Position numbers and translations under genes: made by a program. From Bacteroidaceae bacterium (lineage in GTDB: Bacteria; Bacteroidota; Bacteroidia; Bacteroidales; Bacteroidaceae), in assembly GCA_017552435.1 (NCBI GenBank), contig JAFZPZ010000096.1:1-56230 (forward strand): 56,230 bases of DNA, written 5' to 3'. The notes beneath the pieces are model-generated. The model did not search any database. It was not told the origin of the DNA and was given only the letters and a program-made list of their open reading frames with translations. This document shows positions 6,187 through 26,059 of this stretch, piece after piece (the stretch's first letter is position 1; the number at the start of each line of letters is the position of its first letter).

Positions 6187-6228
6187 TGGACCAGGTAGGG
6201 CTTGAACCTACGACCTCCAGATTATGAG
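6187..6228 (-). pseudogene. Displaced 3' half of tRNA-Met (attL)
   Basis: Read on the minus strand this matches the 3' half of the tRNA-Met at 24976-25049: anticodon loop end, variable loop, T arm and acceptor strand CTGGTCC. Its T stem is GTAGG/CCTAC instead of CCTGG/CCAGG. No 5' half is present, so it cannot be a functional tRNA. I read it as the original chromosomal 3' half left at the far end when the element integrated. Confidence 0.8.
6212..6228. repeat. attL core direct repeat
   Basis: This is the left copy of the 17-bp core GACCTCCAGATTATGAG. Sequence outside the core diverges from the right copy but keeps tRNA base pairing on the left side. Confidence 0.8.
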
Positions 6229-7208: not shown

Positions 7209-8130
7209 ATGTCTATATTGTTATAAGGAATTGGAAGAAGGTCAGAAAGACTTTCATCCAAGTTGTGCACGAAAATTCTTCGGGACAAAAGAAGTGCCAT
7301 TGCTGGAGTATAAGCATGAAGATCTCGATCAATTAGCCGAGCAGGTGATTCGTGCTCAAACATCTCTAACAGGTGTGCAGCCCAAACTGTCTCTGAACCT
7401 CGACAAACATGATGGCTGTAGCCGACTTACTATCGTAGGACTTTGGGGAGATTATATCTTCAAACCACAGACGGAGAGTTATCCACAATTGCCCGAAAAT
7501 GAGGACTTAACGATGCACCTTGCGGAAGCCGCAAAGATGAGTGTCGTTCCTCATAGCCTTATCCGTCTGGCTGATGGAAAACTTGGGTACATCACAAAGC
7601 GTATTGACCGAACCGAGAATGGCGATAAGATAGACATGGAGGATATGTGTCAGCTCACGCTACACCCTACGGAATACAAATACAAAGGCTCGCATGAGCA
7701 GATAGCAAAGACAATTTTGCAGTATAGCAACACGCCAAAACTCGACTTGACGAACTACATGCAATTGCTGCTCTTCTGCTTTGTCACAGGCAACAACGAC
7801 ATGCATCTGAAGAACTTCTCGCTATACCGACCATCCAAGGATTATAAACTGACACCAGCTTATGATCTCCTCAATGTGGCAATTGCAAATCCCAAGGATA
7901 AAGAGGAGTTGGCACTTACTCTTTCGGGAAGAAAAACGAAACTCCGTTTGGCAGACTTCCTGAATGCTGCAAAGACAATGGGACTGGAGGAAAAAGTAGT
8001 ACAGCGTCTCATTGCTGGTCTTCATAAGGCATTCCCTAAATGGCAACAGCTTATAAAAGATTCCTTCCTCAGTGAAGAGCAAAAACAAGCGTATGAAGAA
8101 TTTGTAGTTTCTCGATTGGATAGGTTATAG
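7201..8130 (+). CDS. HipT/HipA-like serine-threonine kinase toxin
   Basis: 309 aa, HipA-type kinase lacking the N-terminal subdomain supplied by the preceding gene. A small Cys/His cluster (CLYCYKEL to HPSC, residues 2-24) opens the protein. Next come the P-loop-like TGVQPKLSL with potential phosphorylation sites, the ATP-binding lysine region DYIFKPQT, the catalytic loop GNNDMHLKNFS and the metal-binding AYDLLN. Known HipA and HipT kinases phosphorylate aminoacyl-tRNA synthetases and cause growth arrest; the target here is not known. It is the last gene of the module at the left end of the element, a likely stabilisation or defence cargo. Confidence 0.85.
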   Translation: MCKCLYCYKELEEGQKDFHPSCARKFFGTKEVPLLEYKHEDLDQLAEQVIRAQTSLTGVQPKLSLNLDKHDGCSRLTIVGLWGDYIFKPQTESYPQLPENEDLTMHLAEAAKMSVVPHSLIRLADGKLGYITKRIDRTENGDKIDMEDMCQLTLHPTEYKYKGSHEQIAKTILQYSNTPKLDLTNYMQLLLFCFVTGNNDMHLKNFSLYRPSKDYKLTPAYDLLNVAIANPKDKEELALTLSGRKTKLRLADFLNAAKTMGLEEKVVQRLIAGLHKAFPKWQQLIKDSFLSEEQKQAYEEFVVSRLDRL

Positions 8131-8607: not shown

Positions 8608-10107
8608 ATGAAATTAACAAAATCATTACCCGTTATCAAGGAGCGTAACTGTTCCGCTTCCTTGGTTCTCGATTGTCGCACACAGAGGAAGAATGCGACA
8701 GAGTTTCCATTAGCCATGCGTTTCACCATTGAGCGCAAGTTCTTCTATTATGTTGTAGGAAGTACCTACACAGAAAAACAGTTCTCCGACATCTGCAATG
8801 CCACTAAGAGCGCATCCGACAACTACCGTGAGCAGCGTATGTGGCGAGAGACCATCGTCCCCAAGTACAAGAACCTGCTTACGGAACTCAACAAAGGAAG
8901 CCTGTTCACCTATGAAATGGTACGTGTGGCTGTCACTACAGGCAACACATCCCTTCAGGAGGAAGATGACCGCTCCTTCATGAGCATCTGGGAGCAGATT
9001 ATCCACGACCTTAAAACCAATGACGGAGGAGCACGTTTTACAACTGGGCAGAATTACGAATATGCCCTGAAGTCATTCCGCAAGATTATGGGGTATGATG
9101 CCATTACAGGTTTCAACATCAGTGTAGTAGAGATACAGAAGTGGAAGGATGGCATGAAGAATGGAGTGAAAGGCAAAGGTGGCAAGCTCATTGGCAAAAT
9201 CAGCGATACTACAGCTGGCATCTATCTTCGTGCATGTCGTGCCGTGTGGAACACCTGTGTTCGCGAGGGTTTCCTCAAAGATGTTCCTTATCCGTTTTCA
9301 AACAAGAAAGAGAAGGGACTTGTCAGCATCCCTGCCAGTGCAAAGAGGCGCAAGTGCTATCTCCGTGTCAGTCAGATGACGGAACTCTACAATCTCTTTA
9401 TTTCCAAACAATACCCAGAGCATTGGGGTGAGTCATATACTGCATCTGTACATTTTTCGCTTGGCTTGTTTCTGGTTCAGTATCTCTGCAATGGATTCAA
9501 TATGGCAGATGCAGCCCGATTGAAATACGACAACTACTATTTCCAGAATGAAGGCAATGCATTTCGTTTCAATCGCAAGAAAACGGAAAAGACCAGTGCC
9601 AATGGTTCAGAGGTCATCATCCCTATCATTGATCCTTTACAGCGCATCCTTGATGAGATTGCTGCACCGCCTACACGCGATGGCTATGTGTTCCCTCAGA
9701 TATTCAATGGTGCAGAAACCGAGGAAGACCGCAGGAAGAGAACGCAACAGGAAAATAAGAATGTACGGGAAAGGATGGACAATGTATGTCATGAAGTTCT
9801 TCAATGGGACGAATCCATCAAGCCATCAGGAACTTGGTGCCGCCACTCCTTTGGTACCAACCTTCATAACGCAGGTGTGGAAGTGGATTATATATCAGAG
9901 AGCATGGGACATTCAACTGGCGAACATGCCATCACACATATCTATCTTGACACATACCCTTTGGAGAAGCAGATGGAATACAACTCCAAGCTGTTGGATT
10001 TGAACACGGAGCATTCCAAGCGTGAAAAACTGCTTGCAGAATTGGCAGAGTTCTCGGAGGATGACCTGTCTCAACTCTTGAGCAAACTGAAATCGTCTAA
10101 CCAATAA
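8608..10107 (+). CDS. Tyrosine recombinase 1 (element integrase)
   Basis: 499 aa. The order is an N-terminal arm-binding region, an SAM-like core-binding domain (about residues 110-230) and a catalytic domain. The C-terminal motifs CRHSFGTN (about residue 411) and GHSTGEHAITHIYLDTY with the nucleophilic Tyr (about 446) are clear. The first catalytic-Arg position reads NGFNMADAARL, the variant seen in Bacteroidetes integrases. It probably catalyses integration and excision at the tRNA-Met core, although it lies 2.4 kb from attL. The putative structured RNA is immediately upstream. Confidence 0.9.
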   Translation: MKLTKSLPVIKERNCSASLVLDCRTQRKNATEFPLAMRFTIERKFFYYVVGSTYTEKQFSDICNATKSASDNYREQRMWRETIVPKYKNLLTELNKGSLFTYEMVRVAVTTGNTSLQEEDDRSFMSIWEQIIHDLKTNDGGARFTTGQNYEYALKSFRKIMGYDAITGFNISVVEIQKWKDGMKNGVKGKGGKLIGKISDTTAGIYLRACRAVWNTCVREGFLKDVPYPFSNKKEKGLVSIPASAKRRKCYLRVSQMTELYNLFISKQYPEHWGESYTASVHFSLGLFLVQYLCNGFNMADAARLKYDNYYFQNEGNAFRFNRKKTEKTSANGSEVIIPIIDPLQRILDEIAAPPTRDGYVFPQIFNGAETEEDRRKRTQQENKNVRERMDNVCHEVLQWDESIKPSGTWCRHSFGTNLHNAGVEVDYISESMGHSTGEHAITHIYLDTYPLEKQMEYNSKLLDLNTEHSKREKLLAELAEFSEDDLSQLLSKLKSSNQ

Positions 10108-13082: not shown

Positions 13083-13446
13083 TTTGTTGATTCGATGAAG
13101 ATATACAATAAAGAATCTTATATCAATATGTTACACATTGGTAATCACTCAACAAAGATACAACAACTTTCAACAGTCGGATGGAAGTCGAAATGCTATT
13201 TGTTTTTCTTTTGATTGGCAAAAAAACTTTTATAACAATGACAAATATCATCATCTTCACAAACTCGTCCTCTACAGACGAGAAGAAAAAAGCCCAATTG
13301 CGTGACCTGACAACCCACGCGACATCGTTCAGAAATGGCAGGATGTTATTTGGGGGTTGGGGGAGCAAGTATAGGTTTTGTGTCCCACTAAACCACGGCT
13401 CTGAAAGCCGAAAATGCCAGATGTCTCACTTGAACACTTCAAAAAC
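13083..13446 (+). other. Non-coding region before mobC, probable oriT
   Basis: No credible gene is seen. It holds a hairpin CTCGTC/GACGAG (13264-13282), a G-run stretch (about 13350-13365) and a hairpin CGGCT-CTGAA-AGCCG (13396-13410) just before mobC. In Bacteroidales mobilizable elements the nick region normally lies upstream of the mob genes, so this is the best candidate for oriT. The nick site itself cannot be assigned. Confidence 0.45.
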
Positions 13447-13803
13447 ATGAACACCCCAACCCCAAACAAAGGCGGTCGCCCAAGGAAGCCAGAAAGCGAG
13501 CAACGACTTCGTCCTGTCAAGGTCTATTTCGATGAGCAGAGCTACAGAAAACTGTTGAACAAACGTAGGCGTACAGGCATGTCCCTCTCCACACTGGTTT
13601 ATGAGTTAACGGTCAACGGCTATGTAAAGGAGCCCATTACCAAAGAAGATGCATCATTGCTTCGTTCCCTTGCTGGCATGGCAAACAACCTGAATCAGCT
13701 GGCACACGAGGCACACATCCATAACTTCTCCCAAGTGGAAGAACGTGTACTGCAACTGGCAAATAAAATCAATGAAATACTAATACAGGTAAGTGAACAA
13801 TAA
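13447..13803 (+). CDS. mobC: MobC-like relaxosome protein
   Basis: 118 aa from the ATG at 13447, which opens with the usual KGGRPRK basic segment; a start at 13414 would add eleven residues. The body has VKVYFDEQSYRKL and a ribbon-helix-helix-like basic region, followed by LRSLAGMANNLNQLA as in MobC proteins. It should bind oriT and help the relaxase. It is 3 bp upstream of the relaxase gene. Confidence 0.85.
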   Translation: MNTPTPNKGGRPRKPESEQRLRPVKVYFDEQSYRKLLNKRRRTGMSLSTLVYELTVNGYVKEPITKEDASLLRSLAGMANNLNQLAHEAHIHNFSQVEERVLQLANKINEILIQVSEQ

Positions 13804-13806
13804 ACT

Positions 13807-14691
13807 ATGATAGCAAAGATCCATACAGGAAACAACTTCGGTGGGCTGATCAACTATGCCAACGACATTGTGAAGAAGGACGCTGTAGTAGTGGCATCCT
13901 ATGGAGTGAGCCTCGCTTCAAATGCAGCCATCGCTGCCAGTTTCAAGGCACAGGCAAAAGCTCGTCCTGGAGTCAAGAACTTCGTCGGTCATATATCTCT
14001 CAGCTTTTCGCCTGATGATAAGGACAAGATGAGTGATGACCTGATGGCACATATTGCCAAAGAGTATATGCAGAGGATGGGAATCATCAACACTCAGTTC
14101 GTTGTGTTCCGTCACCAAGACCAGCCGCATCCTCACGTTCACATCGTTTATAATCGTGTCAACAACGATGGTGACGCCATCAACGGAGATTGTAACTTCC
14201 GCAAGTCTGCCGCCATTACTAAGGCTTTGACAAGGGAATACGGACTAACCTTTGGCAAAGGCAAGAAGAATGTCCGTCGTGAGCGCCTGAAAGGCAAGGA
14301 TGTCATCAAATACCGTCTCTATGATGAGGTAACTGCATCCCTGAAAGATTGTCACTCGTGGCAAGAACTGCGTAATACGCTTTCGGTAAAAGGCATATCG
14401 TTGGATTTTACCCGAGGTAGCGATTGTAGCGTTCGCGGAGTGACCTTTACAGATGACGAGCACCAAGTCACTTTCGCTGGTGGAAAGATTGACCATTCGC
14501 TAAGTTTTGATAGCATCGAAAATCAAATGGGGAATACCAATGGTCTTGGTGCAGCCGTAGCAGAAATGCTATTGCAACCGCATGTAGTTCCATCATCAGG
14601 AGGTGGAGGTGGCTCCAGTTCCAAGGACGACGATGATGATAAGGATAGAGATAAGAAACACAATTATATACCACGTAAACGTAGAAGATAA
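13807..14691 (+). CDS. Relaxase/mobilization nuclease
   Basis: 294 aa, relaxase of the Relaxase/Mobilisation nuclease family (MOBP-like). It has the three-histidine metal motif HPHVHIVYNRV (about residues 108-118), an N-terminal TGNNFGGLINY region and a catalytic Tyr candidate in that first segment. The C-terminus is a Gly/Ser-rich linker then acidic and basic runs (DDDDDKDRDKK, RKRRR). It should nick oriT and pilot the strand during conjugative mobilization by a helper element. The family is clear; it is shorter than many relaxases and lacks a helicase domain. Confidence 0.9.
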   Translation: MIAKIHTGNNFGGLINYANDIVKKDAVVVASYGVSLASNAAIAASFKAQAKARPGVKNFVGHISLSFSPDDKDKMSDDLMAHIAKEYMQRMGIINTQFVVFRHQDQPHPHVHIVYNRVNNDGDAINGDCNFRKSAAITKALTREYGLTFGKGKKNVRRERLKGKDVIKYRLYDEVTASLKDCHSWQELRNTLSVKGISLDFTRGSDCSVRGVTFTDDEHQVTFAGGKIDHSLSFDSIENQMGNTNGLGAAVAEMLLQPHVVPSSGGGGGSSSKDDDDDKDRDKKHNYIPRKRRR

Positions 14692-14694
14692 GCT

Positions 14695-15327
14695 ATGGCA
14701 AAAAACAGACCCACACCATTGAAGGACGAGCCAATTAGTTCGCTTGATGAAATGTGTTCAAAAATAGACACCCTTATTGAGACTATTAACCAGCAGAACG
14801 GCTATTTGCGAGTAATAGCCCAGAAAGGTGGTTTTGATAGCGAATACAACTTTATTGTCCACCAGTTCAATGCTACCAATGCTATTAAAGAGGCATTGGT
14901 GAAATACCTCAAAGAGCAGAAAGCAAAGATTGTAGTAGATGGCGAAGAGGATGGCAAACTGGCGAAAGCAGAGGAATTGTTGAAAAAATACCAATCCCTT
15001 TTGGCTGAAGCAATGGAAATCATTAAAAATCACATTTCTGCTACATCACCCGTTACGACCGTGGTCATCCATGAGCCTTTACCCACAAAAACAGTTTTGA
15101 AACCACAGCCGCCTCAGTCAACAAAGGGGATGTTCGCATACCTATTTCTCCGCTTGCCTTGGTATCATATTCGGAACTTCTTTGCATCCTCTTATTTCAA
15201 GCATTGGCTCATCATTATTATGGTGAGTGTCTGGTTTGTCTCTGTTTTTCTGACTTGTATCATGGCTATCGACAATGTCAGGATGCATCAGATGTACAAC
15301 ACCATTCTTATTCATTCAGGAATATAA
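14695..15327 (+). CDS. Mobilization-linked membrane protein
   Basis: 210 aa, 3 bp after the relaxase. The N-terminal 120 residues are charged and helical, probably coiled coil, and one membrane helix lies near residues 163-190 (WLIIIMVSVWFVSVFLTCIM). No family recognised. Coupling to the relaxase suggests a role in docking the relaxosome at the membrane, which is inference from position. It ends 17 bp before recombinase 2. Confidence 0.75.
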   Translation: MAKNRPTPLKDEPISSLDEMCSKIDTLIETINQQNGYLRVIAQKGGFDSEYNFIVHQFNATNAIKEALVKYLKEQKAKIVVDGEEDGKLAKAEELLKKYQSLLAEAMEIIKNHISATSPVTTVVIHEPLPTKTVLKPQPPQSTKGMFAYLFLRLPWYHIRNFFASSYFKHWLIIIMVSVWFVSVFLTCIMAIDNVRMHQMYNTILIHSGI

Positions 15328-15343
15328 AACAAAGTATTTGCCT

Positions 15344-16537
15344 ATGACATCAATAAAGGTAAAGTTCAGACCATCCACAGTTGATGGTAAGGAGGGAAGC
15401 CTCTATTTCCAGATTATCCATAATCGGGTAGTCCGTCAGATGAATACTGATTATAAAGTCTTTGCAGATGAATGGGATGCAGAGTCTGAGAGCATTGTCA
15501 TAAACGGCAATCGCTCAAACCTCATGCTTGGCATTCAGGAGCGTCTGTCATGGGATGTGGCTCGTCTGGAGAAAGTGGTCAGCACTTTGGAAACTGCTCA
15601 TCGTCGATTTACGGCAGATGATGTTATCACTCTGTTCCATAAACAGACTAAGGAATCATCACTCCTGAACTTTATGCATGGTGTTATAGCCCAGTTGAAA
15701 CAACTCGGCAAAATTCGTACCTCCGAGACATATACGGCTACACTCAATAGCTTCATGGCATTCCGAGAGAATCAAGATGTACCGCTTGACGGCATCAGTT
15801 CTGATTTGATGCTTCTTTACGAAGCTCACTTGAAAGCCAGAGATGTACGAATGAATACCATCTCATTCTACATGCGCATTCTTCGGGCCGTGTATAACCG
15901 TGCCGTGGAAAAAGGATTGACTCCGCAGAACAACCCTTTCCGACACGTCTATACAGGAGTAGATAAGACCGTAAAACGAGCCATACCAATCAAAACCATT
16001 AAGGAACTGAAGGAACTTGACTTGTCCTTGAAACCCTCATTGGACTTCGCCCGTGATATGTTCCTGTTCAGCTTCTACACCAGAGGAATGTCTTTCATAG
16101 ACATGGCATATCTACGAAAATCGGACTTGAAAAACGGCATTTTGACCTACAGAAGAAGAAAGACAGGTCAGGAACTAACAATCAAATGGGAGAAGTGCAT
16201 GAACGAAATCATTGCCAAATATCCTGAAAACAAAACAGAATTTATTCTCCCTATCATTAAAGAGCCTGGTAATGAGCGAAAGCAGTATGACAATGCCCTT
16301 CACTTGGTCAACTACTATTTGAAAGACCTCTCGGAAATGCTCCAACTTCAACGACCACTTACGATGTACGTTGCACGTCACTCATGGGCGAGTGCAGCCA
16401 AGGCGAAGAACGTGCCTTTGTCTGTCATCAGCGAGGGTATGGGACACGACTCGGAGGCAACGACGCAAATTTACCTTGCATCATTGGAAACGTCGGTGGT
16501 TGATAAAGCTAATAAGATGATTTTAGGATTGTTGTAG
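15344..16537 (+). CDS. Tyrosine recombinase 2, candidate DNA invertase
   Basis: 397 aa from the ATG at 15344 (a further upstream start at 15275 would overlap the preceding gene). The layout is an arm-binding N-terminus, SAM-like core-binding domain and catalytic domain with FYTRGMSFIDMAYLRKSDL, the box-II motif ARHSWASAA (about residue 343) and GHDSEATTQIYLAS with the Tyr nucleophile (about 375). It resembles the Bacteroidales recombinases that act on invertible promoters or shufflons. The gene ends 28 bp before the left inverted repeat of a putative invertible segment, the main reason for proposing it as that segment's invertase. It could instead be a second integrase. Confidence 0.9.
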   Translation: MTSIKVKFRPSTVDGKEGSLYFQIIHNRVVRQMNTDYKVFADEWDAESESIVINGNRSNLMLGIQERLSWDVARLEKVVSTLETAHRRFTADDVITLFHKQTKESSLLNFMHGVIAQLKQLGKIRTSETYTATLNSFMAFRENQDVPLDGISSDLMLLYEAHLKARDVRMNTISFYMRILRAVYNRAVEKGLTPQNNPFRHVYTGVDKTVKRAIPIKTIKELKELDLSLKPSLDFARDMFLFSFYTRGMSFIDMAYLRKSDLKNGILTYRRRKTGQELTIKWEKCMNEIIAKYPENKTEFILPIIKEPGNERKQYDNALHLVNYYLKDLSEMLQLQRPLTMYVARHSWASAAKAKNVPLSVISEGMGHDSEATTQIYLASLETSVVDKANKMILGLL

Positions 16538-16546
16538 ATAGAGATT

Positions 16547-16682
16547 TGTTTAGCAAATTTCTCATTCTCTTTCTAAGAGACGGATATCTGCCCACAAAGG
16601 TACTAAAATTTAGTCAAAATCATCCTTTTTGTGTGTTAAAAGTGGTTCGTTCGTCTGTGTTTTTTGACAATGTTTAGCAAAT
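16547..16682 (+). repeat. 12-bp direct repeats beside the invertible segment
   Basis: TGTTTAGCAAAT occurs at 16547-16558 and 16671-16682 in the same orientation; TTTGACAA also repeats at 16663-16670 and 16723-16730. They may be accessory recombinase binding sites. Confidence 0.5.
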
Positions 16683-16753
16683 CGGAATCTTAGAGAGGCT
16701 AAATATACGGAAAATCAAGAGGTTTGACAACTGTCCCGTCTCTTAGAAAGAGA
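16566..16753. promoter_or_regulatory. Putative invertible promoter segment
   Basis: TCTCTTTCTAAGAGACGG (16566-16583) is repeated exactly in inverted orientation at 16736-16753, enclosing 152 bp. Each copy is itself an inverted pair of six bases around an asymmetric three-base centre, the layout of a recombinase crossover site. Inside, TACCTTTG on the minus strand (16595-16602) is a perfect -7 box pointing away from the downstream operon. No TAnnTTTG is seen on the plus strand up to 16889. Inversion would turn the promoter towards the helicase gene. The recombinase gene ends 28 bp to the left. Confidence 0.6.
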
Positions 16754-16812
16754 CGAATGGATATCCTCGATAAAGACCACTAAATGCCAACAGGCAAAAA
16801 TAATAAAATGGA

Positions 16813-16877
16813 ACTCCCTCGTAGTGTAAAAAAAGGGCTTGGTCGCCTATCGAGACACTGCGTTGGGAGTTTTTCAG
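16813..16877 (+). terminator. Hairpin with T tract before the helicase gene
   Basis: AACTCCC (about 16812) pairs with GGGAGTT (about 16869), with AGTGT/ACACT pairing inside, and a TTTTT tract follows. It ends only about 12 bp before the helicase start, so it may attenuate the operon or block read-through from the recombinase. Confidence 0.5.
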
Positions 16878-16888
16878 AATAGTGCAGT

Positions 16889-19800
16889 ATGCTCATAGAC
16901 AACAAGACGAACAGATATCCAGACTCTGGCTTTAACATTGTTACTGTTTGGGATTTCATCAATGAATTCTCTGGTAAATCATCAGAACAAGTTGGTAACA
17001 TGGATATTGTTACAGGCTATTTTACTATCCGTGCTCTCAGTAAACTCTACCATGAGCTACCAGAAGAAGATGTGTTCCGTATTGTATCGTCAGAGATGGT
17101 TATGCAAGAAGAGGAGAAAAACCATATCATTGATTTGCTAAATGGAGACACTGGTATAGAGACCACTCTTAACCTTGATGAATATGCTCGTGATGCAAAA
17201 GCATTCTTGCAACGAAACACCGTGCAGATTAAAGCCATTGTTAATGCATTCTGTCATGCCAAGGCATACATGTTCAAGAACAACAACCCAAAGAATGACA
17301 GTTTCTATCTGACAGGTAGTAGTAACCTTACCGATGCTGGATTAGGGTTGAAAGCCACATCCAACATTGAATTGACAATGGGTGACCCTGTGAAGTTGAG
17401 TGACAAAGATTACAAGGAAGTTTGTTCTTGGTTCGAAGATATTTGGAAAATGGCCGCAGAGCAAATCCCTTCCGATTCGACAAACCCAAAGTCAGAAAAG
17501 ATAAGCGTTAAAGACTATTTCATCAAAAAGATTGATGACTATTTCCGTCGCTATACTCCAGAAGAGATTTATTATAAAATCCTTTTTGAACTCTTCAATT
17601 CTGATATTGAATTGGATGGTTCCATTGAGCATAGACAGGACATGTCTCTTCTCCAAACGAGTGAGATCTGGAAGACACTTTTCAAGTATCAGCAACAGGG
17701 AGTTATATCCCTTATCAAAATGCTCCGAAAGTTTAATGGAGCTATCCTTGCCGATGCCGTAGGTTTGGGAAAGACATTCTCAGCGCTGGCAGTCATGAAG
17801 TACTTCCAGACACAAAATTATGTTACCGTCTTACTTTGTCCGAAGAAGTTGGAACAGAACTGGACGCAATATCTTAAGCGTCATGGTTCTCGTTTTGACA
17901 AAGACGAGTTTGATTATATTGTCCGTTTCCACACCGACCTTCAGAACGACCGTTTGCAAAATGCTTACGATGACGCACCGCTTAACTGGCTACAGTCGCG
18001 TAAGAAAGTGTTGGTTGTCATTGATGAGAGCCACAACCTGCGCAATGAAAAATCAGGTCGTTATCAAGACCTTTTGCAGAACCTCATTCAGAGTCAAGAC
18101 CCAGAAAGTGGTCGCGATGTGAAGGTGCTGATGCTTTCTGCCACGCCTATCAATACAGGATTGAACGACGTGAAAGGTCAATTCAACCTTATTGGTCATG
18201 GTGATGATGCTGCATTTGATACGGAAGATTTTAACATCGAGTCTCTGAGAAATCTCTTTGCTGATAGTCAGCGTAAATACACTCAATGGTGTAGCGACCC
18301 AGACCGCACCATTGGTTCATTCATTTCTCTGCTTCCTCCTAAGTTTTTCAACCTGACAGATAAACTGATTGTTGCCCGTACACGTAAACTCATAGAGAAT
18401 ACGCTTGGTGAAGATCTCGGATTCCCCCAAAAGGAAAAGCCAGATAATGTGTATCAGGGTGTAGATCATTTTGGTAAATATCACTCCACAGATGAAATCT
18501 ATGCTGCCTTTGATGCACTAAGCCTTACGGCATACCAACCCAGCCTTTTCCTTCACGCCTCACGCAAGGAAGCAGAAAGAGAAGCCTCAGGTGATTGGAG
18601 TGACGATGTTAACCGTGAGCGTTTCCTTGTAAAGATGATGGGCATTCTGTTCATGAAGCGACTGGAAAGTAGTTGGCATTCATGCCGTACCACCATCAAG
18701 AAAGTGTTGGATGTTCATGAACAGACGCTTGCAAAAGTTGTTTCTTTCAAAGAACAGAAAACTGGAGGAAAGGTGGACGTAGAAATTCCCGATGATGACG
18801 AGAATAACGATACTGATGACATCTTCACTCTGCGTAAAGGTACAATAAACCTGGCTGACATGAAGAATTTGGGAGGCTTTGAACGTGGACTTCGCATGGA
18901 TGTCAATAAACTGCGAGCTATCTGCGAAAGTCTCGATGCTTTTGCGGAAGGTTACAAGAATGGATTTGAACAAGACTTGAAGTTGGAGAAATTGATTGCC
19001 ATTCTTGAAGACAAGCGTCAATCTTCTAATAAGAAAGTGGTAATCTTCACAGCCTATGCAGATACTGCAAGATTTATTTTCGATGAACTATGTAAGCGTG
19101 GTTTTACTCGCATGGCATCGGTTTCCGGACAAGAGATACACACTACAGGTAGACATAATACAAGTAACTTCAATGAGGTACTTCAAAGTTTTGCTCCATA
19201 CAGCAAACTCTACAAGGAACTAGATTGGAGCGATCTTTACGAGGAAGCAAAGCTCAGTCGTACAGACTATTATGATGATGACAAGCGTAGGTGGAATGTT
19301 CCCTTTGCTCTCTGGCAAAAACTTATAGCAGAACGACGAACAAACTTCAAACGCCTGTTGGATGATAGTATTGATATACTCATTGCTACGGACTGTCTCT
19401 CTGAAGGACAAAACTTACAGGATGCTGATATGCAGATTAACTATGACATTCATTGGAATCCAGTTCGTCTGATTCAGCGTTTTGGACGTATTGACCGTAT
19501 CGGTTCACCATGTAATTCTATACGTTGTGTCAACTTCTGGCCTGCCAAGTCTTTCGAGGATTACCTTCATCTTGAAACGCGCATAATGAACCGCATGGTG
19601 GCAATGAACCTTGTAGGTTCAGAGACTCAGCAGTTGAACGATGCCTATTTGAAGATGGAAGCAGATAATCCTTTACAGGATAAGAATGCCGACCGCTTGC
19701 TTGAAGAGTTGCAGAACAATAGCATCAGCGATATAGAATCACCACGTACACTATCTTTGAAAGATTTCTCTTTCGAGGTGTATCGTCAAGACTTGATTGA

Positions 19801-20308
19801 CTACTTCGAGAAACACAAGGAAGTGTTCCGTCGAATGCCTAATGGCATCTTCTCTGGTTTCCGTTTTGATGATACTCTTTTTGAAAAGATACCAGAAAGC
19901 CTTGTCGCTGTCGTAGGCTATCCTCATCGTGAGCAAGGAAACAATAAGCCTTACTCTGAAATCTATCTGATGTGCCAACCTGCCGACACGCACATTCCTG
20001 CGACTTATCAGGAACTCAACCGTGCCGAGGTGTTGGAATTTCTGCGTAAGAACAAGACGCAAGACCGTTTTGTGCCAGAATGGATAGAGACTAACAATAA
20101 GGAGCGTTTGCAGAAGCTATCGAATATCATTCAAAAATGGATGGAATCCAAAGTTCCACAGCAAGCTACTGCTGCAATCTTACAAATAGCAAAATCTCGT
20201 AAGACGATACACAAGACTACAAAACAGGAAAAGAATGCCCAATTACTTGAAGAGAAATTCAAGAAGGAGAATTTTGACCTGATTGTATGGGAGTATGTGA
20301 GTAAATAA
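16889..20308 (+). CDS. PLD-SNF2 helicase of a putative defence operon
   Basis: 1139 aa. The N-terminal 200 residues contain a phospholipase-D-like motif HAKAYMFK with a following GSSNLTDAGL (about residues 123-155), suggesting nuclease activity. A complete SNF2/RapA-type superfamily 2 helicase follows: Q-motif-like KYQQQGVISL, Walker A DAVGLGKT (about 290), DESH (about 378), LMLSATPINT, and motif VI RFGRIDRIGS (about 863). The next gene, 15 bp downstream, is an adenine methyltransferase. Together they look like a split version of single-chain nuclease-helicase-methylase restriction enzymes, or relatives of DISARM/BREX helicases. Role in defence is inference from domains and neighbours. Confidence 0.9.
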   Translation: MLIDNKTNRYPDSGFNIVTVWDFINEFSGKSSEQVGNMDIVTGYFTIRALSKLYHELPEEDVFRIVSSEMVMQEEEKNHIIDLLNGDTGIETTLNLDEYARDAKAFLQRNTVQIKAIVNAFCHAKAYMFKNNNPKNDSFYLTGSSNLTDAGLGLKATSNIELTMGDPVKLSDKDYKEVCSWFEDIWKMAAEQIPSDSTNPKSEKISVKDYFIKKIDDYFRRYTPEEIYYKILFELFNSDIELDGSIEHRQDMSLLQTSEIWKTLFKYQQQGVISLIKMLRKFNGAILADAVGLGKTFSALAVMKYFQTQNYVTVLLCPKKLEQNWTQYLKRHGSRFDKDEFDYIVRFHTDLQNDRLQNAYDDAPLNWLQSRKKVLVVIDESHNLRNEKSGRYQDLLQNLIQSQDPESGRDVKVLMLSATPINTGLNDVKGQFNLIGHGDDAAFDTEDFNIESLRNLFADSQRKYTQWCSDPDRTIGSFISLLPPKFFNLTDKLIVARTRKLIENTLGEDLGFPQKEKPDNVYQGVDHFGKYHSTDEIYAAFDALSLTAYQPSLFLHASRKEAEREASGDWSDDVNRERFLVKMMGILFMKRLESSWHSCRTTIKKVLDVHEQTLAKVVSFKEQKTGGKVDVEIPDDDENNDTDDIFTLRKGTINLADMKNLGGFERGLRMDVNKLRAICESLDAFAEGYKNGFEQDLKLEKLIAILEDKRQSSNKKVVIFTAYADTARFIFDELCKRGFTRMASVSGQEIHTTGRHNTSNFNEVLQSFAPYSKLYKELDWSDLYEEAKLSRTDYYDDDKRRWNVPFALWQKLIAERRTNFKRLLDDSIDILIATDCLSEGQNLQDADMQINYDIHWNPVRLIQRFGRIDRIGSPCNSIRCVNFWPAKSFEDYLHLETRIMNRMVAMNLVGSETQQLNDAYLKMEADNPLQDKNADRLLEELQNNSISDIESPRTLSLKDFSFEVYRQDLIDYFEKHKEVFRRMPNGIFSGFRFDDTLFEKIPESLVAVVGYPHREQGNNKPYSEIYLMCQPADTHIPATYQELNRAEVLEFLRKNKTQDRFVPEWIETNNKERLQKLSNIIQKWMESKVPQQATAAILQIAKSRKTIHKTTKQEKNAQLLEEKFKKENFDLIVWEYVSK

Positions 20309-20323
20309 TAACTAATAGAACAG

Positions 20324-23300
20324 ATGAACCTTATGAATACAGTTCTGAAAAAGTTTGTTAACGAATCCTTGTTTGATGCCAGTTCTGCTTTGCTGCATCA
20401 CTTGCATATAGTGTTTAACGAGGTGACACGAGTACCTGTGCCATTTGAAGACCTTTATCCTCTTGACTTGTCTAAGGCTTTGAATGATGTACTTGCAAAG
20501 GTGGAAAACACTTATTTCATCGGTACTGTGGATGAGTCCTCGCTGACAGGTAGTGCCGAAACACTTTCTGCCGAGGAAGTGACAGCTCGTGCTTCGGAAG
20601 GCAAATACACTGGTATGATGATTTTTGCCGTAAAGTTGCAAGCTGGAGCCACGCTCACACGTTCAGAAAGTGCCACTCTAACGCGAGGATTTAACCGCAT
20701 AGCATCAGCACAACCCGTCATCCTGTTCATTAAGCAGGGTAACGAGTTGGCCCTATCAACCTGTGAGCGTAGCGAATATACACAGCAATGGCGTGACGGA
20801 GAGAAACTTGGTAAGGTGAGCATCCTACGTGGCATCAATTGTTTGAGTCCTCATCGTGGACACATAGACATCTTGGCATCTATTGGTGACAAGACATATC
20901 CAAACTATGAAGAACTTTACAAGCACTGGATGGAAGTATTCTCCAGTGACTTGCTTACAAAGAAATTCTACTCAGAGCTCAGCGATTGGTACGCTTGGGC
21001 TGTGCAGGTGGCACGTTTCCCGAACGACCTCACAACCGATACGGATGATGACAAATTCAACCATGAGAGTTGCATCCGTCTCATCACTCGACTCATTTTC
21101 GTATGGTTTCTTAAACAAAAGCATCTCATCCCAGAAGAGTTCTTCGATGAAAAGTACATCAAAGAACACTTCATCGATGAGTTTAATCCTCACGATCGAA
21201 GGAACTTGCTCTATAATCCAGAGGAAAGCAAGTACTATCGTCTCATCCTGCAAAATCTTTTCTTTGCTATGCTTAACTGCCCAATCGTGGCGGAAGGTAA
21301 GGATGTACCAAACAATAGAAGATTTCGTGGTGACTTTCAGAAAGGTTTCTTGCGTGATGGTTACAACGTAAACAACCTGATGCGTTACAAGTCCGACTTC
21401 AAGGATGGTGGTGCAGACGAGTTTGTACAGATGGCTAACAACCATGTGCCTTTCCTCAATGGTGGCTTATTCGATTGCTTGGATAAGAAACCAGAAAAAC
21501 TATATTACGATGGTTTCTCCGAAAGAAAAGAATCGCTTGAACAGCTATATCTTCCTGATTGGCTCTTCTTTGGTGATGAAGTGGGACGTAGTATCGACCT
21601 TTCACAATGGTATGGTGACAACAATAAGAAAAGTGTTTCCGCTCGTGGCATCATAGACATTCTGAAACGTTATAACTTCACTATTGAGGAGAACACTCCG
21701 CTTGATCAGGAAGTATCACTTGACCCTGAACTATTGGGTAAAGCTTTTGAGAACTTGTTGGCATCCTACAATCCAGAAACAAAGACTTCTGCCCGTAAGC
21801 AGACAGGCTCATTCTATACACCACGTGAAATTGTGCAGTACATGGTAGATGAGAGCCTTGTAGCCCACTTGAAACGTACATGTGGTGACGAATTGGAACC
21901 TGAGTACCGCAAGTTGCTTAGTTACTCTACAGAAGAGACTACACTCAACGAGGAACAACGAAAAGCCATCATGCAGGCTATTTATAATTGTCGTGTACTT
22001 GACCCAGCTTGTGGGTCAGGTGCATTCCCTATGGGTATTCTTCAACAATTGGTGCATGTCCTTCGTCAGCTTGATCCGACTAATGAAATGTGGAAGGACT
22101 TTATGATTGATCTTGCCATTGAACAATCAAAGGTTGCCTTTGCTGAGGACGAGGAAACTGAAAGGAAAGCACGTTTGGCAGACATTGAAGAAGCCTTCAA
22201 TACGAGTGTTAACGACCCTGATTATGCCCGTAAACTCTATCTCATAGAGAATTGCATCTATGGCGTAGATATTCAGCCTATAGCGGTACAAATATCCAAA
22301 CTACGTTTTTTCATTTCTCTCGTAGTTGATCAAAAGCAGACTGATGATGCTGCTCATAATTTTGGAATTCGTCCGCTGCCAAATCTTGAATCAAAGTTTG
22401 TAGCAGCAAACACGTTGATACCAGTAAAGTATAATGGAGAACTTGTGGAAGGTAATCCTGATGTAATCAAAAATAAGAGTAGGCTAAAGGATTTAAGTCA
22501 TCAAATATTCCTTGCCAAGCGGAACGTTGACAAACAGCGACTAAAGCAAGAAATCAAAGAAACGCGCCAAGCTCTTGCTTTAGCTATTGAGGATACAGGA
22601 TTTGTCAGTCAAAGTGCAGCACAACAATTGGCAAACTGGGATATGTTTGACCAAAATGCTTCATCTTCATTCTTCGATGCAGAATGGATGTTTGGTATAA
22701 GAGGAGGGTTCGATGTTGTTATAGCTAATCCTCCATACAAGATAGTATCAAAAGACGATGAATTCAAGTCGTTCTATGACTCATTATATTGTGTTGCACG
22801 TGGTGGTAAAAGAAATCTATTCCACCTTTTCTTTGAACGTGGAATAAAACTTGCTAAGAAAAACGGTGTTCTTTCTTACATTACCCCAGATACCTATTTC
22901 TCTGGAAACGACACAGAAGCACTTAGAGAATTTTTTGTAAATAATGTTGATATAAGGAACATTATTCATTACCCGGAAAAGGAGAAGGTATTTGAAAATG
23001 TAACACAGGCAGTAGCAGTAATTGTACTTATAAAACAACAGCATGGCAAAGGTTTTCATATTATATCCAAAAGTGCCAATTCATATATCGACTACGCAAG
23101 TGTAACAAAGAGCACAAAATACATTTTTAAGGCAACGGACGGCATTGTTGAAAAGATGAAAAGATGCACATTGTCATTTGGATCTGTTTGTGAAGGATAT
23201 AAAGGCGATGTAAATCTTGGATTAAAAAAAGAATATTTCACTACATATGAAGATACCGATTGTTTACCATTAGTTCGTGGAATACAAATAACTCAATACC

Positions 23301-23806
23301 TTTACATTCCTGGCAATGAGTATTGCTCTGTTCAGGCTCTATCGAAGAATCATTCAAGTAAGGAACGTATTGTTTTTCAAGAAGTGTCAAATATGGGGCT
23401 AAGCCAACGAATAAAAGGGACAATACTTCAAAATGTAATATGTGGAGACACATGCAATCTGTTATTCTCAAAAGACAATCGTTTTGATAACAAAACTATA
23501 CTCTCTATATTAAACAGTAAAGCTGTTAATTATTTCTTCAAATATTTTAACCAAACGAATCATGTCCCCATTGGAGAGATAAGAAAAATACCTTTCCCAT
23601 CAATAGCTAAAGAAGAAAAAGAAGTGCTCATTGATCTAGTGGATAAAATTTTGAGTTCGAAAAAGACAAATCCTAACACAAGTACATCTTCATACGAACA
23701 ACAAATTGATCTTCACGTATATCACCTCTACGGTTTTACCTACGATGAAGTTCTCATCATAGACCCAGAGACAACAATAACAAGGGAAGAATATGAACAG
23801 AGATGA
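20324..23806 (+). CDS. Eco57I-like adenine-specific DNA methyltransferase
   Basis: 1160 aa. The gamma-class N6-adenine methyltransferase motifs are clear: SAM-binding DPACGSGAF (about residue 560) and catalytic NPPY (about 802). The first 500 residues are an N-terminal helical domain as in type IIG/Eco57I enzymes, with no obvious PD-(D/E)xK nuclease motif that I can see. The last 300 residues should be the target-recognition domain and are noticeably more AT-rich, with more AGA and ATA codons. It should protect host DNA and give specificity to the helicase-nuclease. Its last 14 bp overlap the sirtuin-like gene. A start at 20333 is also possible. Confidence 0.9.
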   Translation: MNLMNTVLKKFVNESLFDASSALLHHLHIVFNEVTRVPVPFEDLYPLDLSKALNDVLAKVENTYFIGTVDESSLTGSAETLSAEEVTARASEGKYTGMMIFAVKLQAGATLTRSESATLTRGFNRIASAQPVILFIKQGNELALSTCERSEYTQQWRDGEKLGKVSILRGINCLSPHRGHIDILASIGDKTYPNYEELYKHWMEVFSSDLLTKKFYSELSDWYAWAVQVARFPNDLTTDTDDDKFNHESCIRLITRLIFVWFLKQKHLIPEEFFDEKYIKEHFIDEFNPHDRRNLLYNPEESKYYRLILQNLFFAMLNCPIVAEGKDVPNNRRFRGDFQKGFLRDGYNVNNLMRYKSDFKDGGADEFVQMANNHVPFLNGGLFDCLDKKPEKLYYDGFSERKESLEQLYLPDWLFFGDEVGRSIDLSQWYGDNNKKSVSARGIIDILKRYNFTIEENTPLDQEVSLDPELLGKAFENLLASYNPETKTSARKQTGSFYTPREIVQYMVDESLVAHLKRTCGDELEPEYRKLLSYSTEETTLNEEQRKAIMQAIYNCRVLDPACGSGAFPMGILQQLVHVLRQLDPTNEMWKDFMIDLAIEQSKVAFAEDEETERKARLADIEEAFNTSVNDPDYARKLYLIENCIYGVDIQPIAVQISKLRFFISLVVDQKQTDDAAHNFGIRPLPNLESKFVAANTLIPVKYNGELVEGNPDVIKNKSRLKDLSHQIFLAKRNVDKQRLKQEIKETRQALALAIEDTGFVSQSAAQQLANWDMFDQNASSSFFDAEWMFGIRGGFDVVIANPPYKIVSKDDEFKSFYDSLYCVARGGKRNLFHLFFERGIKLAKKNGVLSYITPDTYFSGNDTEALREFFVNNVDIRNIIHYPEKEKVFENVTQAVAVIVLIKQQHGKGFHIISKSANSYIDYASVTKSTKYIFKATDGIVEKMKRCTLSFGSVCEGYKGDVNLGLKKEYFTTYEDTDCLPLVRGIQITQYLYIPGNEYCSVQALSKNHSSKERIVFQEVSNMGLSQRIKGTILQNVICGDTCNLLFSKDNRFDNKTILSILNSKAVNYFFKYFNQTNHVPIGEIRKIPFPSIAKEEKEVLIDLVDKILSSKKTNPNTSTSSYEQQIDLHVYHLYGFTYDEVLIIDPETTITREEYEQR

Positions 23807-24821
23807 AGATATTGACATAGCAGAATTAATGCGTTCAAGACCACACCTGTTTATTTTGGGAGCAGGTGCTACAAAAGCGACCATACCTAATGGAGATAAG
23901 TATGGTCGCCAAAGTCCTGTCATGGAAAACTTCATGCACGAGATTGGTATAGATGGGTTGTTGGAAGGAGTGAAACTGAAGACTAAAAGTAAAAACATTG
24001 AAGCAATATATTCAGAACTGTCAACAAAACCAGAATATGCAAGTGTTGTTTCCAAGATAGAAGATGGTATTGTCGCACATTACCGACAAATGCAAATTCC
24101 TGATGCACCAACACTATATGATTATCTCATTCTATCTCTTCGCCATAAGGATTGTATTGCAACATTCAACTGGGACCCATTGTTAATACAAGCATACAAC
24201 AGAGTCAATAAAATAACGTCAGACTTACCTCAAATGTTATTTCTCCATAGTTCTGTAGAGGTAGGTGTCTGTGAAGACTGCTATCATTACGAGCCTTTCC
24301 GTAACAGATATTGTTCAATTTGTGGTCAGCCTTTATCTTCTCCAAAACTTTTATACCCGGTAAAACATAAGGATTATTCACAGGATATATTCATAAAGGA
24401 CAGTTGGGATGCTTTCTCTGGCTATCTGGAACGTGCTTGTATCGTGACTATTTGGGGGTACAGTGCCCCAAAAAGTGATAGTGAAGCTAAGAAGATGATG
24501 TTAAAAGCCTTCTCTTCTACTTTTCGGAAGCTTGACCAAATTGAGGTGATAGATATTGCCGAAGAGGAAAAACTATATAAAACTTGGAGTTCATTCGCCA
24601 AGAAAACCAATTATCATTTGAACATATATACATCATTGATGGATACGTTTATCGGAGAATTTCCTCGAAGGAGTGTAGAAGGTTATGTAAAAAGGAATAT
24701 CGAAGGTTGGTGGGGTGGCTCTACTCTAACATTGAAGGAGTGTAAATCATTTGATGAACTTGCACACCTTTTTGCCCCTTTGTTAGCAAATGAATCAAAC
24801 GATAATTTTTGTGTAATATAA
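23793..24821 (+). CDS. SIR2-like (sirtuin-fold) protein with zinc ribbon
   Basis: 342 aa. The Rossmann motif FILGAGATKA (about residues 19-28), then ATFNWDPLL (about 123-131, the place of the sirtuin N-I-D motif), FLHSSVE with the likely catalytic His (about 151) and a zinc ribbon CEDC-x11-CSIC (about 160-177) keep the sirtuin order. Bacterial SIR2 proteins in defence systems (Thoeris ThsA, DSR, SIR2-Argonaute) degrade NAD+ on phage infection, so this may be the effector of the operon. It overlaps the methyltransferase by 14 bp, indicating coupled expression. NADase versus deacetylase activity cannot be told from sequence alone. Confidence 0.8.
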   Translation: MNRDEDIDIAELMRSRPHLFILGAGATKATIPNGDKYGRQSPVMENFMHEIGIDGLLEGVKLKTKSKNIEAIYSELSTKPEYASVVSKIEDGIVAHYRQMQIPDAPTLYDYLILSLRHKDCIATFNWDPLLIQAYNRVNKITSDLPQMLFLHSSVEVGVCEDCYHYEPFRNRYCSICGQPLSSPKLLYPVKHKDYSQDIFIKDSWDAFSGYLERACIVTIWGYSAPKSDSEAKKMMLKAFSSTFRKLDQIEVIDIAEEEKLYKTWSSFAKKTNYHLNIYTSLMDTFIGEFPRRSVEGYVKRNIEGWWGGSTLTLKECKSFDELAHLFAPLLANESNDNFCVI

Positions 24822-24964: not shown

Positions 24965-24975
24965 GATTTTTAATG

Positions 24976-25049
24976 TGGACCAGCCTGGGCTTGAACCAGG
25001 GACCTCCAGATTATGAGTCTGTTGCTCTAACCAACTGAGCTACAAGTCC
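24976..25049 (-). tRNA. tRNA-Met (CAT), chimeric at the integration site
   Basis: 74 nt on the minus strand: acceptor GGACTTG with CTGGTCC, D arm GCTC/GAGC, anticodon loop CTCATAA (anticodon CAT), T arm CCTGG/CCAGG with TTCAAGC loop, discriminator A and no encoded CCA. The acceptor shows a T-T mismatch at pair 6-67 and the anticodon stem an A-G at 27-43. The 5' half is chromosomal, and the 3' half past the 17-bp core came with the element. An elongator Met tRNA is most likely; a lysidine-modified tRNA-Ile with CAT anticodon is not excluded. Confidence 0.9.
25001..25017. repeat. attR core direct repeat
   Basis: This is the right copy of the 17-bp core, spanning the anticodon loop, 3' anticodon stem and variable loop of the tRNA gene. 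Confidence 0.8.
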
Positions 25050-25124: not shown

Positions 25125-25156
25125 TTTGGTGTAGCGAAGAGTTTTGACTATTTTTG
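25125..25156 (+). promoter_or_regulatory. ribF promoter
   Basis: TTTG (25125-25128), 20 bp, then TATTTTTG (25149-25156) match the Bacteroidales housekeeping promoter. The expected start of transcription, near 25161-25164, is only a few bases before the ATG at 25166. Confidence 0.7.
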
Positions 25157-25165
25157 CACATCAGT

Positions 25166-26059
25166 ATGGAGAAAAGTTGCGCTGTTACTATAGGCTTCTT
25201 CGATGGTGTTCACCGCGGACACCGTTATTTGCTGCAACAACTGGAAGCGTTGGCAAAAGCCAATGAATTATCGGCTGTGGCTGTAACGTTCGACTGTCAC
25301 CCCAGACAGGTGGTTTGCGAGGAATATGTGCCTTCGTTACTGACGACACAGGAGGAGAAGCTGGCTCTGCTTTCCGAAGCATTCAGCGGGAAAGTGGTGG
25401 TGCTACCTTTCACACACGAGTTGAGCACGTTGACTGCCAAGGAATTCATGCAAACCATCTTGCGCGAGAAGTTGAATACCAAGATCCTGCTGATGGGCTA
25501 CAATCACCGATTCGGACACGGAGGCGGAACACCGGAACAATATGCTGCGTGGGGCAAGGAGACAGACATCAGGGTCTGCCAAGCAGAAGCATTAGATGGA
25601 GAAAAAGTGAGCAGCAGCAGAATAAGAAGTCTGATAAGCCTTGGAGACATAGAAAAAGCCAACATGATGCTTGGCTATCCGTATTTCCTGACGGGCAAGG
25701 TGACAAGCGGCAAACAGATTGGACGACAAATGGGATTCCCGACAGCCAACCTTTTGCTGCCAGAACAGAAGCTTCTGCCGGCATGTGGCGTGTATGCCGT
25801 ATGGGTCGTAATGCCCAACGGAACAAAGCAGGGCGGGATGCTCTGCATCGGGCACCGGCCCACTGTAGAACCTAATGGTGATATCAGCGTGGAAGTTCAT
25901 ATCTTCGACTACTGCGGCAACTTATATGGCGAACGAATTCACATCGATTTCATCGGGAAATTGCGCGAAGAACGTCATTTTGCCTCAATAGAAGAATTGC
26001 AGCAACAGCTCTCTCTTGATGCTACATCTGCGAAAGAGATAATAAGTAGGACAGCATGA
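25166..26059 (+). CDS. ribF: Bifunctional riboflavin kinase/FAD synthetase
   Basis: 297 aa from the ATG at 25166; an in-frame stop at 25145 leaves only a TTG at 25154 as alternative. The N-terminal nucleotidyltransferase has GFFDGVHRGH (residues 10-19) and the C-terminal riboflavin-kinase domain has the GRQMGFPTANL motif. It converts riboflavin to FMN and FAD. The N-terminus is about ten residues shorter than most RibF proteins. It overlaps the next gene by 4 bp. This is the first chromosomal gene after the element, and its promoter starts less than 80 bp past the tRNA. Confidence 0.93.
   Translation: MEKSCAVTIGFFDGVHRGHRYLLQQLEALAKANELSAVAVTFDCHPRQVVCEEYVPSLLTTQEEKLALLSEAFSGKVVVLPFTHELSTLTAKEFMQTILREKLNTKILLMGYNHRFGHGGGTPEQYAAWGKETDIRVCQAEALDGEKVSSSRIRSLISLGDIEKANMMLGYPYFLTGKVTSGKQIGRQMGFPTANLLLPEQKLLPACGVYAVWVVMPNGTKQGGMLCIGHRPTVEPNGDISVEVHIFDYCGNLYGERIHIDFIGKLREERHFASIEELQQQLSLDATSAKEIISRTA

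Follow-up and report, generated by a model that had tools for sequence, protein, structure and literature searches.

The segment between positions 16566 and 16753 is very probably an invertible promoter that is flipped by the adjacent recombinase and leads, by way of a pseudoknotted leader RNA, into an operon on a mobile element. It lies in a window of 56,230 nucleotides, i.e. the whole stretch of DNA analysed here, contig JAFZPZ010000096.1 of a Bacteroidaceae bacterium. The switch belongs to a known type, the invertible promoters of Bacteroidales, and what is new is the pseudoknotted leader between switch and operon, which an earlier sequence-only reading of this DNA had missed. The features of the switch are the following.

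15275..16537, plus strand: tyrosine recombinase, the proposed invertase of the segment (Pfam Phage_int_SAM_5, Phage_integrase, Arm-DNA-bind_5)
16545..16557, plus strand: TTTGTTTAGCAAA, proposed arm-type (accessory) recombinase site outside the left arm, at a conserved position in relatives
16566..16583, plus strand: left arm of the inverted repeat, core TCTCTT-TCT-AAGAGA (repeat detection)
16584..16735, strand not applicable: invertible segment of 152 bp, in both orientations among relatives (box-based state, alignment orientation)
16595..16602, minus strand: -7 box TACCTTTG, pointing away from the operon (OFF), 21-22 bp inside the arm as in relatives
16669..16681, plus strand: imperfect second copy of the proposed arm-type site, within the segment, at a conserved position in relatives
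16736..16753, minus strand: right arm of the inverted repeat (repeat detection)
16765..16882, plus strand: leader RNA with pseudoknot (covariance model match of 113.8 bits, the window being among the model's own sequences; covariation)

The sequence-only reading had described 18-bp perfect inverted repeats 152 bp apart (16566-16583 and 16736-16753), each with six inverted bases around an asymmetric centre, and both points are borne out, the design being TCTCTT-TCT-AAGAGA. The recombinase frame indeed stops at 16537, 28 bp before the left arm. A chance repeat is rejected, as perfect inverted repeats reached at most 12 bp when 16538-16888 was block-shuffled 2000 times, compared to the 18 bp observed, and the window holds no further copy of the 18-mer arm with up to 3 mismatches. 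Among the matches listed, the core CTCTTTCTAAGAGAC is found only at the two arms in the window's genome (3.5 Mb, 87.9% complete; up to 2 mismatches). We then compared the site geometry in 24 loci, comprising the window, 21 recombinase relatives and 2 loci from a DNA search; the relatives were first chosen for visible repeats before the arm pattern was applied, and L041 (mutated right arm), L054, G047 and G049 were left out for want of two arms that fit it. In all 24 pattern-fitting loci the two arms are identical at all 15 bases, while the centre varies from locus to locus (TCT, TCC, CCC, CCT, CGT, TTC, TCG and others). Agreement within a locus combined with differences between loci is what strand exchange would require. 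The site TTTGTTTAGCAAA has a fixed position of -21 relative to the left arm in 22 of the 24 loci (up to 2 mismatches), and a site of this type occurs within the segment at +87 to +89 in 15 loci, with none there in 9, compared to 1.1% of shuffled segments. The strand of this inner site tracks the ON/OFF state in 15/15 loci (12 OFF, 3 ON). We propose that the adjacent recombinase (15275-16537) would recombine the two TCTCTT-N3-AAGAGA sites, aided by the TTTGTTTAGCAAA arm-type sites, and that the 152-bp segment would flip.

Bacteroidales promoters carry the motif TAnnTTTG. As claimed before, the segment contains a perfect -7 box on the minus strand, TACCTTTG at 16595-16602, and there is no plus-strand TAnnTTTG before the operon in 16538-16888; the minus strand has one more box, TATTTTTG at 16795-16802, beyond the invertible segment. 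A TAnnTTTG box is located 21-22 bp inside one arm in 22 of the 24 loci, pointing toward the cargo (ON) in 5 and away from it (OFF) in 17, and only L043 and L045 have no perfect box. The window is among the 17 OFF loci, its box facing the recombinase gene. Judged by box direction it is assembled in the OFF orientation, in agreement with the earlier OFF call when set beside the ON-state relatives L036, L039, L050, L070 and L071. While the box faces the recombinase gene in this assembled orientation, in the inverted one it would fire through the right arm into the pseudoknotted leader of about 115 nt and then into the helicase-methyltransferase operon. The -33 box, whose weakness was the main doubt of the sequence-only reading, is confirmed to be weak. 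The conserved upstream letters in 22 aligned promoters are roughly AATAAgGTGgattTTG at -28..-13 and TTTT at -39. Taken together, box placement and the two orientations in relatives support the earlier proposal of an invertible promoter before the operon that would presently be OFF.

Evidence for inversion comes from the comparison of homologous loci, a check that had been suggested with the proposal and that reveals both orientations among relatives. A DNA search with 16500-16900 over 301 family genomes gave a match in 27, and in G141, G047 and G049 the inner part is opposite in orientation to the right flank. Reading the downstream regions of the window and some 33 recombinase relatives side by side showed a shared anatomy in most. 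The segments of L038, from a goat reticulum MAG, and L070, from MAG RUG14675 (counted as one locus with G141:C3), are 52.2% identical as read and 157/158 (99.4%) identical after inversion, with flanks that agree at 31/31 positions on the left and 347/350 on the right. Their recombinase genes align at 89.8% only, and the two loci are not near-identical throughout. As the L070 recombinase frame is short (304 aa compared to about 397), this ON copy may no longer flip; full-length frames of 397-422 aa are present in the ON loci L036, L039, L050 and L071. The box-based state matches the better-aligning orientation in 153/153 locus pairs that are at least 60% alike. Based on these alignments the segment inverts in relatives of this locus, and the window's own contig, which shows the OFF orientation only, would be one of the two states.

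Contig ends in relatives suggest that they are products of mixed-orientation populations, since assemblers break where both orientations coexist. The end of G247:C4 and the start of G247:C27 share 55 bases, stopping where the two orientations diverge, and the contigs of L035, G197:C27, G180:C20 and G042:C28 end at an arm. By hand count over 83 relatives (80 plus 3 viral), 12 contigs break off within 400 bp downstream of the recombinase gene and 2 begin within 400 bp upstream of it. In Segatella albensis DSM 11370 (L049) a run of 170 N, the sole one there, sits exactly between two whole arms, which is suggestive of mixed orientations in a collection that masks some stretches too. In G047 and G049 the box is in the ON orientation and a right arm is present in whole or in part, with no left arm seen. 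These loci (L199 in G047, L182 in G049) are possible locked-ON remains; the G049 contig ends about 540 bp upstream, so that a lost switch there is a guess.

The 118 bases 16765-16882, between the switch and the first gene, are conserved before many operons, some of them without repeats nearby. Their helices, counted by hand from the sequence, include the following.

16766-16771 with 16849-16854: leader P1
16775-16778 with 16841-16844: leader P2
16812-16827 with 16855-16871: leader P4
16835-16838 with 16845-16848: leader P5

P1 to P4 were counted from 30 sequences, the first covariance model held P1-P3 only, and a second one added P4 and P5. In 52 aligned matches 87.0% of the cells are paired compared to 36-43% when the strands are slid, and the covariation score is 0.341 against 0.198 (sd 0.008) for shuffled alignments, a score that the kinship of the related leader sequences can raise. 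In P1, 97.1% of the cells are paired and each of the six pairs shows changes on both sides. As P1-P3 were fitted by the model, P4 and P5 provide a less biased test. P4, outside the first model, shows a covariation of 0.307 compared to 0.229 (sd 0.012) and a pairing of 82.6% compared to 42-55% when slid; the pairing drops to 74.9% in the outer half of the helix, where one pair is not formed in 27/52. P5, likewise outside the first model and initially picked up by RNAalifold, has a covariation score of 0.412 compared to 0.235 and is paired to 93.7%, compared to 32-71% when slid. P4 encloses only one strand of P1, the 3' one, and the predicted leader fold is thus a pseudoknot.

With compensatory changes at a conserved place before genes, the leader would by comparative analysis be a structured cis-regulatory RNA. 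Conserved DNA without structure is disfavoured by the covariation, despite mixed single-sequence fold z scores of -4.09 (window), -1.47, -2.47, -4.59 and -0.89 (L036). Given this range, from -4.59 to -0.89, stability alone fails to separate all five from shuffles. A known Rfam leader or riboswitch was likewise considered and rejected, as nothing of the kind reaches the gathering score in 16400-17100, in 8 further leader loci or in the whole window. At E<=1, 16400-17100 yields three sub-threshold matches only. One of these, L13-Bacteroidia at 16597-16683 (18.6 bits compared to a cut-off of 38), falls within the invertible segment, outside the leader; the 8 further loci yield five sub-threshold matches only, and the whole window at gathering score 5S rRNA and tRNA only.

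The leader in its P1-P3 form was found in 35/399 family genomes and 13/30 genera. It is not widespread beyond the family, with 4/344 order genomes including its own under strict filters and 1/395 class genomes, its own genome only, with the second model and strict filters. It mostly stands directly before restriction, BREX or helicase operons, in most cases without a switch. Arms were found on both sides in 16 of 52 leader loci, on one side in 4 and not at all in 32, counts that are not a frequency as 13 of the 52 came via the recombinase search. This context set differs from the alignment set of 52 in containing G141 where the latter has L036. The first gene starts -9 to +24 nt from the model end in 47/52 loci, where frames that ran into the leader had been trimmed to begin at the nearest start codon past it, which favours short distances; it is farther away in G128, G082, G394, G369 and G029b. 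Among the families listed, the first genes of the 52 loci match, with overlaps, ResIII (25), SNF2 (20), N6_Mtase (7), C5 DNA methylase (7), HSDR_N (6), HsdM_N (4), Eco57I (3), BrxA (2), N6_N4 (2) and T5orf172 (2), and they form 28 clusters at 40% identity. There is no defence match at the leader loci G394 (fasciclin), G247 (none), G029b (M6 peptidase second) and L061 (TPR). As a control we took 28 of the 46 upstream genes. Set aside in advance were the loci obtained through the recombinase search, the window and G141, as well as two recombinase genes and an 83-aa frame. PADLOC AbiEii models match in one member and RmrA in one.

The leader might instead be a conserved recombination hot spot or an att-like DNA hairpin for cargo swapping and not a regulatory RNA, a reading that we regard as unlikely. 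A conserved leader adjoining diverse cargo would fit it, as would the variable regions that lie downstream of invertible promoters in Bacteroidales ICEs according to the accessible part of PMC8748976, and the five z scores just given, not all separable from shuffles, are compatible with it. It is opposed by the compensatory changes in nested and pseudoknotted helices alike, by the conserved spacing to promoter and start codon and by the 32/52 loci where the leader is present and no arm was found. For the regulatory RNA, the position of P4 points to a likely mode of action. Between the end of its 3' strand (16865-16871) and the ATG lie 17 nt, and U makes up on average 52% of the 11 alignment columns that follow P4, which makes control of the translation start or early termination likely; bearing on the terminator reading of P4, TTTT occurs within the last 14 alignment columns in 27/52 leaders. 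Standing before unrelated defence operons with or without a switch, the leader would probably act as a second control layer through translation or early termination. More tentatively, and with somewhat more doubt than conviction, we suggest that it might be a pseudoknotted cis-regulatory RNA of a new class, reserved for anti-phage defence operons of Bacteroidaceae/Prevotella-type bacteria, a common sensor or gate before unrelated restriction, BREX, Dnd and PLD-helicase first genes. Together with the mobile invertible promoter it could form a two-key switch in which the flip decides which cells and the RNA decides when.

The segment could also invert while a fixed promoter or an upstream transcript drives the operon, inversion then being neutral or, in the OFF state, antisense on the recombinase. 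This is improbable. The weak -33 element speaks for it, as does the OFF box facing the recombinase gene together with the prevalence of that state, since in the wider recombinase family the 62 loci with repeats comprise 46 OFF, 9 ON and 7 without a clear box. Against it stand the fixed distance from box to arm in 22/24 loci and the lack of a plus-strand TAnnTTTG in 16538-16888. Moreover, 12 of the 32 arm-less leader loci have a TAnnTTTG at -46 to -57 from the leader, which is the place of the ON box (at -50 in G141, L039 and L050).

The invertible promoter would most likely be served by the recombinase next to it, as judged from the linkage of gene and repeats. A protein search with this recombinase yielded 271 relatives, of which the best 80 were retained; these come from Prevotella, Bacteroides, Parabacteroides, Phocaeicola and others, and include the isolates Segatella albensis DSM 11370 (L049), Bacteroides xylanisolvens XB1A (L077) and Phocaeicola plebeius DSM 17135 (L082). 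As many relatives align only from residue 24, its true start may be at about 15344. Perfect inverted repeats (at least 13 bp, 120-200 apart, within 900 bp) lie downstream of the gene in 59/70 relatives with at least 600 bp of downstream sequence, whereas the same test upstream of the gene gave 1 locus and shuffles gave 4/1400. The single upstream match has the geometry of the L061 switch. One of the 59, L062, was counted through an unrelated 13-bp repeat, its TCTC arms being farther away. For the 11/70 without perfect repeats, the causes include a mutated arm (L041), an N gap (L049) and a switch on the other side (L061). In L061:5481-7191 the switch and leader are upstream of the recombinase and point in the opposite direction, leading into a gene for a TPR protein.

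A recombinase elsewhere in the genome might nevertheless invert the segment, with the neighbour as a passenger. We give this a small probability. Several invertible-type sites exist in some genomes, where a recombinase elsewhere could act in trans, and G247 has two; a master recombinase, Mpi, exists in B. fragilis as cited in the available part of PMC5903667. The repeats beside the gene in 59/70 relatives argue against such a role here, as do the two arms being the only matches of the core listed for the window's genome. The paired-arm pattern was found in 39/399 family genomes, compared to 0 for a backwards control pattern among the matches listed, and with several sites in some genomes it is widespread. 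G249, G379, G293, G062 and G080 each contain 3 to 8 invertible-type segments with TCTCTT-N3-AAGAGA arms, many of which have the centre AGT while the flanks differ.

Several further observations concern the recombinase family. Identical arms TCTCTATGTAAGAGATACT are found 41 bp past the recombinase match in L066, L069, L072-L074, L076, L077, L085, L088 and L090. The genus labels of these records differ, which hints at the recent spread of an element, or else at errors in binning. The IMG/VR contigs L145 and L146 carry the same recombinase type with repeats downstream; the viral collection holds distant relatives only (3 loci, L147 without repeats), and so does the plasmid collection (3 records at 60-80% identity). 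Broken-looking frames include a short recombinase at L070:2675-3589 and a split one at L051:3780-5096.

The recombinase, switch, leader and cargo appear to be part of a larger unit, for which we propose from the genes and repeats an 18.8-kb mobilisable element in tRNA-Met. Its landmarks are the following.

6212..6228, plus strand: left copy of the duplicated tRNA-Met piece GACCTCCAGATTATGAG, proposed element end (duplication)
8608..10107, plus strand: separate tyrosine recombinase, proposed element integrase (Pfam Phage_int_SAM_5 3.6e-6; Phage_integrase 6.8e-6, just below cut-off)
13414..14691, plus strand: mobilisation genes, MobC/NikA-like 13414-13803 and relaxase 13807-14691 (Pfam)
25001..25017, plus strand: right copy of GACCTCCAGATTATGAG, inside the intact tRNA-Met 24975-25049 (minus strand)

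The duplicated piece is 17 bp long, and a 35-bp direct repeat lies just inside each end (6332, 24894). The interior holds a HipA-like gene, an integrase-type gene, DUF6043, DUF3853, a DUF5906/primase-like gene, MobC and relaxase, followed after the relaxase by the recombinase 15275-16537, switch, leader and cargo. The integrase-type gene, relaxase plus MobC and the tRNA-Met duplication are, from the genes as read, features of a mobilisable integrative element. The HipA-like gene is at 7201-8130, near the proposed left end; outside the element a riboflavin kinase/FAD synthetase gene follows (25154-26059). As the element has its own integrase and tRNA-Met ends, the switch-side recombinase is probably not the element integrase but an invertase-type gene within the element, distinct from 8608-10107. 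That the repeats are an attachment site of the element integrase and not a switch is rejected as the main account and highly unlikely, for although a tyrosine recombinase lies 28 bp away, the arms resemble crossover sites and the window carries a mobilisable element, there is another recombinase in the element (8608-10107), the proposed ends are the duplicated tRNA-Met piece (6212/25001) with its direct repeats, and the repeats at the switch are inverted, not direct, around a segment found inverted in relatives.

The cargo of the switch consists of three genes.

16889..20308, plus strand: PLD-like and SNF2/ResIII helicase, first cargo gene (Pfam, PLDc_2 and DEAD below cut-offs; PADLOC C3a139 HKD+Snf2 4.7e-70)
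20324..23806, plus strand: Eco57I-type/type IIG-like adenine methyltransferase (Pfam Eco57I 1.8e-36; PADLOC REase_MTase_IIG 4.7e-61)
23793..24821, plus strand: third cargo gene, no family match

The third gene, labelled SIR2-like earlier, has no match in sequence searches of Pfam, NCBIfam, PADLOC or PDB. The best PADLOC match of the helicase is to C3a139 (HKD+Snf2), a PADLOC candidate system, at 4.7e-70. DISARM is defined by the core genes drmA, drmB and drmC beside a helicase or methylase. It was considered and rejected, as 16889-24821 contains just the three cargo genes, and among its best 25 matches the helicase is closest to C3a139 and far below the NCBIfam cut-off for DrmD. The first genes after the switch differ among close relatives. 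Relatives of the window helicase at 40% identity or more are present in L038, L039, L041, G141 and G042, the L038 copy being short (612 aa compared to 1139; L038:2543-4381). Other switch loci carry other PLD/SNF2 helicases, DndC in L036 (PADLOC 1.4e-140), BrxC as the second gene in L034 (PADLOC 1.7e-159) and a type III methyltransferase in L059. In 28 more distant relatives, the first genes (frames of at least 120 aa near repeats, some of them close copies of one another) match, with overlaps, Eco57I (8), N6_Mtase (5), N6_N4_Mtase (2) and ResIII (2), and also single surface or sugar-enzyme domains, e.g. alpha-amylase. We take the cargo of L045 and L063 to be lipoprotein operons and, by reading, not defence; there the recombinase-and-switch unit stands before lipoprotein operons without family match (L045:7478-13190, L063:7487-13201), which possibly include a tubulin-like protein as read from the sequence. 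L198 (G247:C27) similarly has a switch before a lipoprotein operon, with the recombinase on another contig. The cargo of L046 (5299-7437) reads like FabG plus ketoacyl synthase (fatty-acid-synthesis-like), presumably not defence and possibly aryl polyene synthesis.

Jiang 2019 reportedly deals with invertible promoters (invertons), and Ben-Assa 2020 is said to cover phase-variable restriction-modification by DNA inversion. Bacteroidales invertons resemble the present candidate switch in their short segment, inverted repeats, nearby invertase gene, on/off behaviour and TAnnTTTG-type promoter. The accessible parts of the sources cover invertible promoters, ICE invertases and restriction-system inversion (PMC8748976, PMC11892184, PMC12632263, PMC5903667, PMC11868660, PMC10333322, PMC10939037, PMC12839542). 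Invertons with tyrosine invertases in Bacteroidales are the subject of PMC11892184 and PMC12632263, whose available text emphasizes surface structures and also mentions restriction systems; in contrast, the recombinase family described here often stands before restriction/defence operons, in part with a shared leader RNA. IP-ARG, i.e. invertible promoters before resistance genes on Bacteroidales ICEs, likewise combine an invertase, an invertible promoter and a variable cargo region on mobile elements, but here the cargo is defence, with mobilisation genes on the element, and the accessible portion of that paper makes no mention of a leader (PMC8748976). In hsdS inversion, DNA inversion also diversifies a restriction system within a clone; as far as the available part of PMC5903667 goes, the specificity gene changes there, while here the promoter of a whole operon would turn, with several kinds of defence. 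Bacteroides capsule operons similarly combine an invertible promoter with a further layer of control in the leader, which is UpxY antitermination in the accessible text of PMC12632263. Unlike capsule leaders, the leader described here is a structured RNA common to unrelated operons, and there is no UpxY among the first-gene families listed. Among the matches listed from the open-licence literature, no publication describes an invertible promoter that precedes mobile defence operons, and none describes the leader RNA.

Carried on the 18.8-kb mobilisable element in tRNA-Met, the unit would render its defence cargo phase-variable, with expression confined to part of the cells in a population. Should the recombinase act as proposed, whole defence systems would be phase-variable as well as mobile in rumen and gut Bacteroidales, and phase variation would reach beyond surface coats and restriction specificity. 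This would help to account for the patchiness of phage resistance within clones and for methyltransferases that are silent in genomes. Being defined by its sequence, the leader lends itself to reporter fusions, and as a shared element it may provide a handle on how one signal regulates costly, unrelated defence systems.
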